Shown in pieces: positions 2,075-9,936 of a stretch of 43,292 bases of DNA; the first letter of the stretch is position 1, and every line of letters starts with the position of its first letter. A model generated the notes under the pieces. It ran no database searches, was not told where the DNA came from, and saw only the letters and a program-made list of their open reading frames with translations. Source of the DNA: Helicobacter sp. (lineage in GTDB: Bacteria > Campylobacterota > Campylobacteria > Campylobacterales > Helicobacteraceae). The translations under genes were made by a program, and so were the position numbers. The stretch spans positions 1-43,292 of the forward strand of contig JARHYT010000016.1 in assembly GCA_029264775.1 (NCBI GenBank), read 5' to 3'.

Positions 2075-4546
2075 ATGAATAATAAGGAATTACATAAAGA
2101 AAACTACAATCATGTATCCATAGAATCTAAATGGCAGAAAATATGGCTTGATTCAAAGGTGTTTGAGCCAAGCGATGATTTTTCAAAACCAAAAAAGTAT
2201 ATATTGTCAATGTTTCCATATCCAAGCGGTGCTATTCATATGGGACATGTTCGTAATTATTGTATAGGTGATGCCATAGCTAGATATTATCGAATGCATG
2301 GTTTTAATGTTTTGCATCCAATAGGATTTGATGCGTTTGGTATGCCAGCCGAAAATGCAGCAATTAAGCACAAAGTTCATCCAAAAGAATGGACATATTC
2401 AAATATGGAAGTTATGCTAAAAGAGTTAAATAACTTGGGATTGAGTTTTTCTCAAGATAGAATCCTAGAAACTTGCAATCCAACATATAGCAGGCATGAG
2501 CAAGAGTTTTTTATACAAGCATGGAAAAAGGGGCTAGTGTATAGAAAAAAGGCTTTTTTAAATTGGTGTCCAAAGGATTTAACAGTCCTTGCAAACGAAC
2601 AAGTTATAGATGGTAAATGTTGGCGTTGCGATACAGATGTAGTGCAAAAAGAGATGTATCAATACTATCTTAAGATAACAGATTACGCAAATGAGTTATT
2701 ACAAGATCTAGATACCTTGGAGGGCAAATGGCCACAGCAGGTTCTCAGTATGCAGAGAAATTGGATAGGTAAGTCTGAGGGATTAGAATTTCATTTTGAG
2801 CTAGATTCTAAATCAAAAGAAATGCTTGATAATAAAATATCTCATTTAGGTGTTTATACCACAAGGGCAGATACATTGTATGGCGTTAGCTATTGCGTAG
2901 TTGCTCCAGAACATAAAATAGTAGATATTTTGATAGAAAAAAAACTTTTATCAGATGATTCAATCAAGCAAATAAATATTATAAAAAATCAAGGTGAAAA
3001 AGAGCGTTCAAAGGCGGACAAAGAGGGCTTAGAATTACCACTTTTTGTAATTCATCCTCTAACACAAAAAAAGATTCCATTATGGGTAGGTAATTTTGTG
3101 CTTATTAACTATGGTTTTGGTGCTATTATGAGCGTACCTAGCCACGATGAAAGAGATTTTGAGTTTGCAAAAAAATATAATCTACCTTTTGTTCCAGTAA
3201 TATGTGCTAATGGAGATCATGATGGTATTAATCAAGTAAATACCGATGATGGGATTTTATGTAATAGTGATGTATATTCAAATCTAACAAGCAAAGAAGC
3301 TAGAAAAAAAATTATTGATTTTTTCGAAAAAAATAATATTGGTAAAAGAACTATAAACTACAGACTAAGGGATTGGGGAATATCAAGACAAAGATACTGG
3401 GGTACTCCTATACCATTAATACATTGTGAAAAATGTGGCATTGTAGAGGAAATAAATTTGCCAGTAATCCTACCAGAAGATATAGAAATAACAGGAGAAG
3501 GTAATCCATTAGAAAATCATGCTACTTGGAAGTATGTAAAATGTCCAAAATGTAATTGTGATGCAATTAGAGAGACAGATACTATGGATACATTTATGGA
3601 ATCTAGTTGGTATTTTTTACATTACACCACACCAAAACATTTAAGAGACAGACAAGCATTTTGCAATGATTTTTTAAAATATTTTATGGAAGTAGATGAG
3701 TATATAGGTGGTATAGAACACGCAATATTACACTTATTATATGCAAGATTCTTTACAAAGATGCTTAGAGATCTAGACTATATTGATTTTAGCGAACCTT
3801 TTATGAATCTATTAACACAAGGTATGGTTTTAAAAAATGGTGCAAAAATGAGTAAAAGTATCGGTAATATAGTAGAACCTAGCGACATAATAAATACTTA
3901 TGGTGCAGATACTGCTAGATTATTTACACTTTTTGCTGCACCTCCAACATATGCGTTAGAATGGAATGATGAGGGTGTAAAAGGCTGTTATAAATTTATT
4001 TGTAGATTAATAGATAGAAAAATTAGAGTACAAAAAACAACAGAGATTCCAACAATCAATGTTGGCACATTGTCAAAAGATTCTAAAATAGCAAGAACAA
4101 AGGTATATGAAGCATTACAAAAGCAACAAAATATATTTAGCAAAAAAATAGAGAATTATCCATTCAATGTAATAATTGCAGCGTGTATGGAAGCACATAA
4201 TGCAATATCTGCACAAGATGATGATATGGTATTTACAGAGGGATATTTTGTATTGTTACACATTTTAGAATGTTTTATCCCACACATAGCTAGTGAATTA
4301 AGCAAAGAACTTTTTGATTTATCAAACTTTAAGCCCATACAAATAGATAATAATGCGTTTATAAAAGATGAAATCATATTCATTGTAAGTGTAAATGGTA
4401 AAAAAAGAGGGGAAATATCAGTAGATCCAAATACAACAAAGGATGAAATATTAAGTAAAGCAAAAATATCTGTACAAAAATGGATAACAAGCGATATTAA
4501 AAAAGAAATATATGTTCCAAATAAACTGGTAAATTTTGTTATATAA
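2075..4546 (+). CDS. leuS: Leucyl-tRNA synthetase
   Basis: [21 protein letters not shown] (HIGH-type motif), KMSKSIGN (KMSKS), editing domain, 823 aa. Confidence 0.98.
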
Positions 4547-4763
4547 GTGAATTGTAAAATGATTTATAAATGCATCTTAGATATTGTATAGCTTAATATA
4601 AAATGGAATCTAAAATTTATCTATTTTTATTATCATCTCAAAATCCTTATAGCTTATAAGTAGTATTAAGATATACAGATACAAGGGTTGTGAATTTAAG
4701 TAAAGTTTATGTTGGTTATCAGATTTCACAATGTTATTATTGGTAAAACACCAAGAATTATTT

Positions 4764-4769
4764 TATAAT
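4764..4769 (+). promoter_or_regulatory. Putative -10 element (TATAAT) of the phosphoramidate-type operon
   Basis: TATAAT 33 bp upstream of ATG 4802, with AAAGGAA ribosome-binding site just before the start. Confidence 0.5.
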
Positions 4770-4801: not shown

Positions 4802-7129
4802 ATGTTACCATTTAAAAGTAAAGCACAAAATTTGCAATCTCTTAGCAAAATTTTAAAATCTGCGGAGATTCTACCACTTATTATCATAAAAAAAGATTCG
4901 CTGAAACATGATTTAGAAAGTATATTGCAAGATATTTATGATTTAAATGCAAAAAGGATCATAGTTAGAAGTTCATCTTTAAATGAAGATTCTATAAATA
5001 GCTCTAATGCGGGGGCTTTTTTAAGTATATCTAATATTGATGTGAATAGTAAAGAGTCTGTTGTAAATGCTTTATGTAAGGTAGCAGATTCTATGCCAAA
5101 TGATAATGATGAGATATTGGTGCAACCATATTTACAAAATATTGAACTTTTTGGTGTCGCTTTTAGTGTTGATAAGGATAATTTTGCCCCATATTATTGT
5201 ATAGAATGTGATGATAGTGGCTCTAGTAGTAGCATTACAGATGGTAGTAGCAAAAATAAAATAAGTTATTTTTGTCATAGAGATACTACTGAATATACGA
5301 GCGATATTTATTTAACACAAATAATTGAGCTTATTAGGGAATTAGAATCTATATTTAATCATACCTTTTTAGACATAGAGTTTGCTTTTGTAAATACTAA
5401 CAAAAGAACACAATTATATTGTTTGCAAGTTCGCCCACTAGTAAAAAATGAAATAAATCTATTTCATTCATTGCCATATGATGCACTTTCTAGGCTACAC
5501 AAGAGATTTTGTGGCTTTTCTAAAAAGATGCCAAAAATATTAGGCGATAAAGCCATATTTGGTGTTATGCCAGATTGGAATCCTGCTGAAATAATAGGCT
5601 TGCGTCCAAAGAGATTAGCACTTAGTTTGTATAAAGAAATTGTTACAGATAATATATGGGCTTATCAAAGAGATAATTATGGCTATAGAAGCTTGCATTC
5701 ACACCCGCTTATGCATTCATTTTTAGGGATTCCATATATCGATGTTAGATGCTCTTTTAACTCTTTTATACCCAAAACGCTAGATGATAGAATCTCTGAA
5801 AAATTAGTTAATTATTATATAAACAAATTAATACAAAATCCGCAGTTTCACGACAAAATAGAATTTGAAATTGTGTTTTCGTGCTACGACTTTAATACGC
5901 CAAATGCCCTTTTATCACTGAAAAATCAAGGCTTTAATACAAATGAGATAAAACGAATTGAATTTGCACTATTGGAGCTTACTAATTTGATTATTGATAC
6001 GGATAATGGATATTATGCAAAAGATTTAAAAAAGATAGAAAAATTAAAAGATTCTTATGAGAACATAATAAATTCTAATTATTCTTTAATCGATAAGATC
6101 TATTGGAGTATTGAAGAATGCAAAAGACTTGGAACCCTACCTTTTGCTGGTATAGCTAGAGCTGGATTTATTGCTATGCTTTTACTTAATTCTCTAGTTA
6201 AAATAGGCTTTTTAAGCATAGAACAAAAACAACAATTTTTAAACTCATTAAACACAGTGAGCAAACAATTAAGCAATAGTATAGCACATTTAACAAATGA
6301 TAACAAAGATTTATTTTTGCATAAGTTTGGTCATTTAAGGGCAGGTAGTTATGATATATTATCTCCTAGATACGATGAAGATTTTGATAAATATTTTAAC
6401 ATTAACACAAATACACATGATGTATCAAAAATAGAATTTAATCTAAGTGATGAAAAACTAAAAGAGCTTGATATTATTCTAAATGAGCATGGCTTGAAAA
6501 TAGATTCTAAAAACTTCTTTGCTTTTATAAAAACTGCTATTGAGGGCAGAGAATATGCAAAATTTGAATTTAGTAAATTATTATCATACACTCTTTACTT
6601 AGTTGGCGAGCTTGGAAAACATTATGATATTAGCAAAGAAGATATGGCACATTTAGATATTAATGATATTCTATCATTATATTCTAGTTTATATTCAAGA
6701 AGTCCAAAGCAAAGATTACTAGATAATATCAAATTGCATAAAGAAGAATATAATCTTACGCTGGCAATTAAATTGCCTCAATTAATTAGTAATCCAAATC
6801 AAATATTTTCTTTTAAAACAGATAGCATAATGCCAAATTTCATTACACAAAAATCAATTATGTGCTTAACCGCTAAAGCTGATGATAAAGATTTAGAGGG
6901 AAAAATTGTACTTATTTATGCTGCCGATCCGGGATTTGATTATCTATTTACAAAAAATATTGCTGGTTTTGTTACTTGCTATGGCGGTGCAAATTCACAT
7001 ATGGCTATTCGTGCATCTGAACTTTGTTTGCCCGCTGTTATTGGAGTTGGTGAAGAAAATTATCAAAGATACTTAAAGGCAAAACGATTGAAGATTGATT
7101 GTGAAAGCGAGCAAATAATATGTCTTTAA
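4802..7129 (+). CDS. PEP-synthase/PPDK-like kinase, probable L-glutamine kinase (Cj1418-like)
   Basis: N-terminal PPDK-type ATP-binding signature ([20 protein letters not shown]); C-terminal PEP-utiliser mobile domain with swivelling His ([28 protein letters not shown]). Neighbouring genes match the Cj1418-Cj1415 set. Confidence 0.8.
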
Positions 7130-7737
7130 AAAAATGTATTGCTATTTCGCAAAGATTATACAAGGTAACAGAGTACTATGAATTAAGAGAAACACTAAGT
7201 CTTGATTGGGGTATATTTTTTAGAAACTATTTAAGTGATTTCTTAATGCTTCCTTTAAGTGTAGAGCAAGATTTTTCATCATATATTCCATTAATAAAAG
7301 GTGTAATTCTCAGTGGCGGTAATGATTTATCAATATTTAGCAATCATATGCTTTCTAAAAAAAGAGATAAATTTGAAACAAATGTAATAGAAGTATGTAT
7401 AAAATATTCTATACCTATTTTGGGAATTTGTCGTGGTGCACAGCTAATAGCACATTATTTTGAATCAACTTTAGAAACATGCAAAGAACATATAGGAAAA
7501 CATGATATACAACAAGGTAGCGAAAGGTTTGTTGTAAATTCATATCATAATTATGGCATAAAAAAATTAGGCAACAATTTAGTGCCTCTTGCGTTTAGTG
7601 ATGATTTCTACATAGAATCTTTTAAACACGAATTGTTACCCATATATGGTATTATGTGGCATATTGAAAGAGATGATGGTATGATAAATGATGGTATTTT
7701 TAAAGATTGGATTAATCTAGTAAAGGATAAAAAGTGA
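7120..7737 (+). CDS. Class I glutamine amidotransferase-like hydrolase (Cj1417-like gamma-glutamyl-CDP-amidate hydrolase)
   Basis: [11 protein letters not shown], nucleophile motif [27 protein letters not shown]26/PuuD-type catalytic Cys-His-Glu. Overlaps the upstream stop. Confidence 0.8.
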
Positions 7738-8498
7738 AAGCAATTATATTAGCTGCTGGTTTTGGTTCTAGGCTTATGCCACTAACAGAAAATATTCCAA
7801 AATGTATGGTGAGATATAAAGGTAAAAGACTTATTGATTATGAATTAGAAGCTCTAAAACATGCTGGTGTAAAAGAAGTTGGCATTGTTGGTGGATACTT
7901 GTTTGAGGTATTAAAAAAATATGTTGATTCTAAATATAATGATATAAAATTTTATCAAAACATAAATTACGATAAAACAAATATGCTTTATACTTTATTT
8001 TGTGCTAGGGAATTTATGGAGAGTTGCATAAGAGATAAAGAAGATATTGTTATATCTTATGCAGATATTGTATATTTTAGCGATAGTGTTTCAAAGCTAA
8101 TAAATTGTAATTTTGATTTAGGCATAATAATTGATAAAAGATGGCAAGAACTCTGGCAAAAGAGGTTTGATGATCCACTTAGTGATGCAGAAACACTAAA
8201 GCTTAACAACAATAATATTATTGAATTGGGTAAAAAAGCAAAAAATTATACAGATATACAAGGACAATATATAGGGCTCTTTAGAATCTCTCATGGCTTT
8301 TTATCTGAAGTATTAAAATTTTATGATGGTCTAGATAGAAACAGAATCTATGATTCTAAGGATTTTAATAACATGTATATGACCAGCTTTTTACAAAGTT
8401 TAATTGATAAATTTCACAATGCCTTTGCAGTAGAAATTTTTGGTAACTGGTGTGAAATCGATTTCAAAAGTGATTTAGATATTGATTATGTGAGGTGA
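7734..8498 (+). CDS. Nucleotidyltransferase (Cj1416-like CTP:phosphoglutamine cytidylyltransferase)
   Basis: [41 protein letters not shown], a classic NTP-transferase N-terminus; GTGA overlap with the upstream gene. Confidence 0.8.
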   Translation: MKAIILAAGFGSRLMPLTENIPKCMVRYKGKRLIDYELEALKHAGVKEVGIVGGYLFEVLKKYVDSKYNDIKFYQNINYDKTNMLYTLFCAREFMESCIRDKEDIVISYADIVYFSDSVSKLINCNFDLGIIIDKRWQELWQKRFDDPLSDAETLKLNNNNIIELGKKAKNYTDIQGQYIGLFRISHGFLSEVLKFYDGLDRNRIYDSKDFNNMYMTSFLQSLIDKFHNAFAVEIFGNWCEIDFKSDLDIDYVR

Positions 8499-8501
8499 AT
8501 T

Positions 8502-9005
8502 TTGGAATACGGATTAATTTTTATTACAGGGCTTAGTGGTAGCGGTAAAAGTACTTTATCACAAGAACTAATTAAGCAACTGCAGATTAAAAACAATATA
8601 AAAGCCATATGGCTTGATGGAGATTTACTTAGAGAATGCGTTGGAAATATTGATTATAGCAAGGAGGGTAGAGAGAATATGGCAATGTATTATGTTAGAA
8701 CGGCTAAAATGCTTGTGGAGCAGGGATTTTTAGTTGTTCTTTCTACAATATCCATGTTTGATTCTGTAAGAAAGTTTAATAGAGATAACATTAAAAATTA
8801 CATTGAAATATATCTAAATGTATCAAAAGATATTCTTGCAAAGAGGGATAGCAAGGGATTTTATAAAAATAATGCTAATAATATGGCAGGGATAAATCAA
8901 GAAATAGAATTGCCAACCAAAAGCGATTTAATATTTTGCGATAATTATGATATTAATGAAGCAATTACGCAAATCTTAAATATATGTAAGGATAAATGTG
9001 ATTAA
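8502..9005 (+). CDS. APS kinase (CysC)-like kinase (Cj1415-like cytidine diphosphoramidate kinase)
   Basis: P-loop ITGLSGSGKSTLS, WLDGDLLRECVG, REN, overall CysC layout in 167 aa. TTG start with upstream AGGTGA. Confidence 0.8.
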   Translation: MEYGLIFITGLSGSGKSTLSQELIKQLQIKNNIKAIWLDGDLLRECVGNIDYSKEGRENMAMYYVRTAKMLVEQGFLVVLSTISMFDSVRKFNRDNIKNYIEIYLNVSKDILAKRDSKGFYKNNANNMAGINQEIELPTKSDLIFCDNYDINEAITQILNICKDKCD

Positions 9006-9936
9006 GATAGATACATCATTTCTTTATGAAATTGTTATGATTGCTATAGAATCTGGTGATATTGTAATGAGTTTTTATGATAATATGGATTTTAGATTAA
9101 AAGATGATAAAAGCCCGATTACACAAGCAGATATAGAATCTAATAATCATATTGCAAGTAGATTAAAGGCTATAAGTGATTATAAGATATGTTCTGAAGA
9201 AGCAATAATGGATTATAATCAAAGATGCAATTTAAAGCATTATTGGCTAGTAGATCCACTTGATGGCACAAAAGATTTTTTAGCTAAAAATGGAAATTTT
9301 ACAATAAATATAGCATTAATTCATTATAATAGCCCAATTTTAGGAGTTGTATATGCTCCTTGCTTGCATGAAATGTATTTTGGATATAAAAATTATGGTG
9401 CATTTAGTTACAATATTGACAGCCTTAAGAATACATTAGCAAGAAAACAAATTAATAAAAAATGGCTTGATTCAAATAAAATAGCACTAAAAGAAAATAA
9501 TATAGCAAAAATATATGGGAATAATTTAGAATATTTATGCTTAATTGATGAAAATATCCGTAACCACATGCTGAATAATATTAATAATTTGCAAAATAAT
9601 TATATAACTATTGCATGTGATTCTATTTTTCACAGCTCCAAAACAACACAGGATTTTATAAAAAAATATGATTTAGCAGTTTTAAAAAGAGGTTCATCTC
9701 TTAAGGTCTGCTCTGTTGCAAGCGGATTGGCTAGTATTTATCCCCGTTTTAATGGAACTAGCGAGTGGGATACTGCTGCAAGCGATATAATACTTAGAGA
9801 ATCTGGAGGCATAATACTTGATTTAGCAACAAAACAACAAATGATTTATAATAAAGAAAATATAAAAAATAATTATTTTATCGCATTTGGTAAAAATCAA
9901 ATAGATAAGATAATTTATAAAGAATGCTTTGATTAA
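8998..9936 (+). CDS. CysQ-like 3'(2'),5'-bisphosphate nucleotidase (inositol monophosphatase family)
   Basis: CSEEA..WLVDPLDGTKDFLAKNGNFTINIALI; SSLKVCSVASGLASIYPRFNGTSEWDTAASDIILRESGG: IMPase/CysQ metal and substrate motifs. GTG start overlaps the upstream stop. Confidence 0.87.
   Translation: MIKIDTSFLYEIVMIAIESGDIVMSFYDNMDFRLKDDKSPITQADIESNNHIASRLKAISDYKICSEEAIMDYNQRCNLKHYWLVDPLDGTKDFLAKNGNFTINIALIHYNSPILGVVYAPCLHEMYFGYKNYGAFSYNIDSLKNTLARKQINKKWLDSNKIALKENNIAKIYGNNLEYLCLIDENIRNHMLNNINNLQNNYITIACDSIFHSSKTTQDFIKKYDLAVLKRGSSLKVCSVASGLASIYPRFNGTSEWDTAASDIILRESGGIILDLATKQQMIYNKENIKNNYFIAFGKNQIDKIIYKECFD

Follow-up and report, generated by a model that had tools for sequence, protein, structure and literature searches.

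What does a five-gene operon resembling the O-methyl phosphoramidate (MeOPN) pathway of Campylobacter jejuni do in a Helicobacter in which no Kps capsule genes were found, and why does it end in a CysQ-like phosphatase? The operon occupies positions 4802–9936 on the + strand of contig JARHYT010000016.1 of Helicobacter sp. (assembly GCA_029264775.1), a stretch of 43,292 nucleotides hereafter called the window. It comprises five intact open reading frames (ORFs) that overlap or nearly overlap, and our ORF reading confirmed the coordinates, the overlaps and the single 3-bp gap described in an earlier annotation made from the letters alone (the sequence-only reading). Drawing on gene content, gene order, homology, co-occurrence, gene fusion and fold resemblance, with the enzyme activities being predictions, we consider it likely that this operon supplies an activated phosphoramidate donor and removes the by-product of its transfer in a cycle resembling that of 3'-phosphoadenosine 5'-phosphosulfate (PAPS).

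The first four genes were compared with their counterparts in a C. jejuni locus, L089. The L-glutamine kinase (GlnK, Cj1418-like; 4802–7129, 775 amino acids) is 64% identical to the C. jejuni protein, scores 1046 bits against PRK05849/NF004508 and carries a mobile-domain motif whose His733 is invariant in the alignment. It is followed by a Cj1417-like gamma-glutamyl-CDP-amidate hydrolase (7120–7737, 205 amino acids; 54% identity), which at 286 bits exceeds the cut-off of 250 for the NCBI equivalog NF045546 and has the motifs GICRGAQ and MWHIER in common with the C. jejuni protein, and by a Cj1416-like CTP:phosphoglutamine cytidylyltransferase (7734–8498, 254 amino acids; NTP_transferase match; 62% identity). 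A CysC-like kinase (8502–9005, 167 amino acids; 39% identity) comes next, so that the four enzymes stand in the same order as in L089, and a CysQ-like 3',5'-bisphosphate nucleotidase (8998–9936, 312 amino acids) closes the operon. Profile searches upheld the family proposed for each of the five ORFs by the sequence-only reading. Judged by homology, GlnK, the hydrolase and the cytidylyltransferase are members of the C. jejuni-type donor pathway; together with the shared gene order this supports the phosphoramidate-donor assignment of the earlier annotation, and the contrary outcomes that it had foreseen at the level of sequence did not appear. The cluster is not a chance assembly: Helicobacter, Campylobacter and several other phyla have the same genes in a conserved order; an order of kinase, methyltransferase, GlnK, hydrolase and cytidylyltransferase is likewise found in several phyla.

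The kinase required separate treatment. It matches APS_kinase (adenosine 5'-phosphosulfate, APS) with 91 bits and is the sole member of that family in the genome at E <= 1e-10. Its motifs DGDLLRE and STISMF are of the operon-kinase type, whereas APS kinases have DGDN.R and FISPF; in an IQ-TREE phylogeny the APS kinases form a single clade (100/99) that excludes the window kinase. It shares family and motifs with the C. jejuni kinase, but the same tree corrects its earlier equation with Cj1415: it falls outside the Cj1415 clade, its closest companions being H. bilis-type kinases, which kinases of phosphonate loci join next (98/96). Given this position, we infer its role from context, as a putative cytidine diphosphoramidate 3'-kinase. 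Neither a PAPS reductase nor CysD was found in the genome (87% complete assembly), and sulfate assimilation, which the earlier annotation had named as one finding that would tell against a phosphoramidate pathway, was rejected on this absence together with the kinase motifs and tree. The same-genus genome G045 provides a natural counter-example, a sulfation cassette at L175:4066-11992 made up of APS kinase, CysQ, sulfotransferase-like genes, CysD and a CysN-like gene. Elsewhere, mostly in Acidobacteriota records, GlnK and CysC-like kinase matches lie within one ORF (L146, L149, L152, L154, L156, L157).

Phosphoramidate transferases, sought across the genome, were traced to contigs other than that of the operon. 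Contig C11 encodes a full-length, in-frame DUF2972 protein (542 amino acids; C13 tract in the gene) and, divergently oriented, two S-adenosylmethionine (SAM) methyltransferases that are 67–77% identical to their C. jejuni counterparts; DUF2972 is the C-terminal domain of the C. jejuni MeOPN transferases (PMC5808241). The reading frame of the first methyltransferase breaks at a G11 tract; that of the second leaves the end of C11 and continues on C74, and since the two contigs overlap by 127 bases they probably adjoin. By sequence, the methyltransferase and DUF2972 components of the C. jejuni-type pathway are present in this genome, outside the operon, and the notion of an operon with no transferase anywhere in its genome was discarded. 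Two other DUF2972 matches, on C12 and C53, are fragments; that on C53 (L078:7176-8092) overlaps a truncated neuB-like ORF and has a Cst-like ORF nearby (both read by eye), apparent remnants of a glycan locus. In a survey of 122 Helicobacteraceae genomes, 54 with and 68 without the hydrolase, DUF2972 occurs in 43/54 of the former versus 1/68 of the latter.

The same survey bears on CysQ, which the sequence-only reading had regarded as an addition to the pathway. CysQ is present in 53 of the 54 hydrolase-positive genomes versus 7 of the 68 hydrolase-negative ones, and in two of these seven exceptions (G045 and G051) it adjoins an APS kinase and CysD. It is thus a regular partner of the pathway in Helicobacteraceae rather than an extra, and this co-occurrence also led us to reject the idea of a peculiarity of the present genome. 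CysQ lies inside the cluster in 27 of the 41 loci examined, forms one polypeptide with the kinase in L040 and L042, and also belongs to the operon in records of Sulfuricurvum, Spirochaetaceae and Holosporales; in the C. jejuni-type genomes examined it is located elsewhere in the genome. The window protein retains the metal-site motifs SEE, DPLDGTKDF and EWDxAA, the nearest PDB chain to its family profile is the CysQ structure 3b8b, and a search for a second CysQ in its genome found none.

Because sequence profiles gave no link between DUF2972 and sulfotransferases, we built structural models of the genome's own DUF2972 protein (mean predicted local distance difference test, pLDDT, 69.6) and of a better-covered relative, L064:14024-15229 (82.1); the alignments of the two match with an hhalign probability of 100 and have some members in common. 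The eleven best Foldseek matches of the L064 model are all sulfotransferases, and against SULT7A1 bound to 3'-phosphoadenosine 5'-phosphate (PAP) it reaches a probability of 1.00 (best E 4.7e-4; template modeling score 0.31 by query and 0.43 by target). The modeled likeness of DUF2972 to PAPS-dependent sulfotransferases is a resemblance of fold, short of proven homology. On these grounds the following cycle can be proposed. GlnK (4802–7129) would convert glutamine and ATP to phosphoglutamine, which the cytidylyltransferase (7734–8498) would join to CTP, giving gamma-glutamyl-CDP-amidate; the hydrolase (7120–7737) would release CDP-amidate, and the kinase (8502–9005) would phosphorylate it to 3'-phospho-CDP-amidate. 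The two SAM methyltransferases would methylate the group and the DUF2972 transferase attach it to a surface glycan, in either order. Transfer would free 3',5'-bisphosphocytidine, a plausible CysQ-type substrate, which CysQ (8998–9936) would return to CMP. The whole would be the PAPS, sulfotransferase and CysQ cycle copied with a CDP-amidate head group.

As to the acceptor, the lack of capsule genes near the operon, already remarked in the sequence-only reading, extends beyond the window: KpsC/S (PF05159) has no match in the whole 87% complete assembly, which places the operon outside a Kps capsule locus. Wzy_C and STT3 were also searched for in this genome and not found. Strong KpsC/S matches (E below 1e-30) occur in 12/54 hydrolase-positive and 5/68 hydrolase-negative Helicobacteraceae genomes, leaving 42 of the 54 pathway-bearing genomes without them. 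The acceptor is probably not a Kps capsule, and lipooligosaccharide or a protein glycan is likelier. Two window genes read as kdsA and kdsB (by sequence, with no library scan), so the organism may have a lipooligosaccharide core containing 3-deoxy-D-manno-octulosonic acid (Kdo) to offer; glycans on flagellin or on other proteins are further possible acceptors.

Some relatives of this genome carry genes for a second chemistry. Five g5 Helicobacteraceae genomes without the hydrolase (L167:8134-12874, L168, L169, L170 and L171) have a phosphonate cassette beside a topA-like gene, the site where relatives carry phosphoramidate genes, and these cassettes include the same kind of kinase together with CysQ. 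Scans against NCBIfam covered L167, L170 and L172, the other phosphonate loci being read from similar sequence and layout; in L167, phosphoenolpyruvate (PEP) mutase and phosphonopyruvate decarboxylase score above cut-off, a radical SAM protein is also present, and the kinase lies at L167:8960-9472. L169 and L170 retain two methyltransferases. At L170:9077-11872 a nucleotidyltransferase is fused to a CobD/HisC-like aminotransferase domain and adjoins a CysC-like kinase whose C-terminal region is weakly like aminoalkylphosphonate N-acetyltransferase. The g4 genomes L172–L174 combine GlnK-type and PEP-mutase-type genes in one locus: in L172:6557-18645, L173 and L174, a kinase-GlnK fusion, hydrolase-like and cytidylyltransferase-like genes accompany PEP mutase, a phosphonopyruvate-decarboxylase-like gene and an iron alcohol-dehydrogenase-like gene. 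Tentatively, and with somewhat less than even confidence, we suggest that capsule-less Helicobacter put phosphoramidate on a non-capsular glycan through a PAPS-like cycle with CysQ recycling, that relatives attach phosphonates with the same kinase-CysQ module, and that 3'-phosphocytidine may be a general carrier of exchangeable head groups.

Several other explanations compete with a phosphoramidate donor cycle. Both Pfam and NCBIfam label the kinase as adenylyl-sulfate kinase and the phosphatase as CysQ, as expected if the operon were a sulfate-activation or sulfation cluster lying beside unrelated enzymes; yet the genome shows no detected PAPS reductase or CysD, the kinase departs from true APS kinases in motifs and tree, and the true APS kinases in the family adjoin CysD and sulfotransferases, as in L175, which makes this account hardly credible. 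The donor pathway could instead stand while CysQ serves general nucleotide housekeeping (breakdown of PAP or oligonucleotides) and lies in the operon by chance. Enzymes of the CysQ family are indeed known for acting on PAP, and in several Campylobacter the CysQ gene is not linked to this pathway. Within Helicobacteraceae, however, CysQ follows the pathway almost exactly, usually within the cluster and, in certain species, as a fusion with the kinase, whereas pathway-free genomes mostly lack it and the present genome yielded no further copy; we regard such housekeeping as unlikely.

A different final group or acceptor, be it an unmethylated phosphoramidate, a mixed phosphonate product or a secreted small molecule, would agree with the proximity of the kinase to those of phosphonate loci, with the union of both chemistries in L172–L174 and with the out-of-frame methyltransferase. 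It is nonetheless improbable, as no phosphonate genes adjoin the operon and the genome has two C. jejuni-like methyltransferases besides the DUF2972 transferase. That same frame-shift, with two of the three DUF2972 matches fragmentary, might suggest a decaying system that keeps its donor operon while losing the transfer module; but none of the five operon genes is disrupted, one full-length DUF2972 gene remains in frame, and C. jejuni normally switches these genes by homopolymer frameshifts, such tracts controlling one capsule methyltransferase and two MeOPN transferases there (PMC13317227). Decay appears very improbable. Certain observations weigh against the phosphoramidate cycle that we favor. 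The kinase shares only 39% identity with the C. jejuni enzyme and does not belong to the Cj1415 clade; CysQ scores 207 bits against TIGR01331, under the cut-off of 228.8, and its substrate, 3',5'-bisphosphocytidine, is deduced. The first methyltransferase is frame-shifted as assembled here. For DUF2972, the profile search for a sulfotransferase relation was negative, and the genome's own model reaches sulfotransferases with Foldseek probabilities up to 0.97 but weak E-values. The co-occurrence statistics (Fisher value for CysQ and the hydrolase, 1.6e-25) ignore shared ancestry, and at 87% completeness absences from the genome are provisional.

The window corresponds to C25, one of the 100 contigs of an assembly totaling 1.68 Mb. 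The operon is flanked upstream by leuS (ending at 4546) and downstream by trpE (starting at about 10112), the two neighbors that the earlier annotation had named. The single promoter that it proposed is plausible as a consensus match, TTGGTA-18-TATAAT at 4740–4769 (+ strand), but such matches are as common in shuffled sequence (50 observed versus 44 +/- 6.6). The nearest relative found is an uncultured Helicobacter (L087; 81% GlnK identity), followed by H. didelphidarum and the H. bilis / H. trogontum group.

A 2019 review described the MeOPN tag as identified only in Campylobacter (PMC6429109). In that genus the tag is a receptor for phages (PMC5808241), and the transferase for it has an effect on resistance to serum (PMC13317227). 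Many Helicobacter have these donor genes, and most of them lack strong KpsC/S matches, which implies another acceptor. The Helicobacter described here, a relative of H. bilis, has an intact predicted phosphoramidate donor set with CysQ in the operon, and no capsule genes were found in it. Since Campylobacter falls inside Helicobacteraceae in a quick GlnK tree (FastTree, local support only), the capsule use of phosphoramidate may be the derived one. The CysQ link offers a testable account of the by-product, and the fold result gives a mechanism to test for DUF2972, which Pfam still lists as a family of unknown function. Our searches of open-licence literature found nothing combining phosphoramidate with CysQ, MeOPN with sulfotransferase, or PEP mutase, phosphonate and Helicobacter, a weak sign of novelty.

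Of the known systems nearest to the operon, the C. jejuni MeOPN pathway (Cj1415–Cj1422) has the same four donor enzymes in the same order; the window genome further encodes C. jejuni-like methyltransferases and a DUF2972 transferase, with homopolymer tracts in genes of both kinds, as in C. jejuni. In C. jejuni L089 the order runs transferase, two methyltransferases, GlnK, hydrolase, cytidylyltransferase, kinase and two Capsule_synth proteins that match KpsC and KpsS in size, CysQ being absent from the locus; the window genome differs in having no KpsC/S found, CysQ in the operon, a kinase of another clade, and its methyltransferases and transferase on other contigs. H. bilis L111, H. trogontum L105 and H. 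didelphidarum L088 share the order from GlnK to kinase and the kinase clade, but there methyltransferases and T6-type transferases stand directly upstream of GlnK; CysQ is directly downstream in L088, as here, and several kb away in L111. The likeness to the PAPS sulfation cycle of CysC, sulfotransferase and CysQ resides in the kinase and phosphatase families and in a transferase model with a sulfotransferase-like fold. It differs from that cycle in that cytidine and phosphoramidate would replace adenosine and sulfate, in that no CysD or PAPS reductase was found, and in that DUF2972 shares with sulfotransferases a modeled fold rather than a profile-level link.

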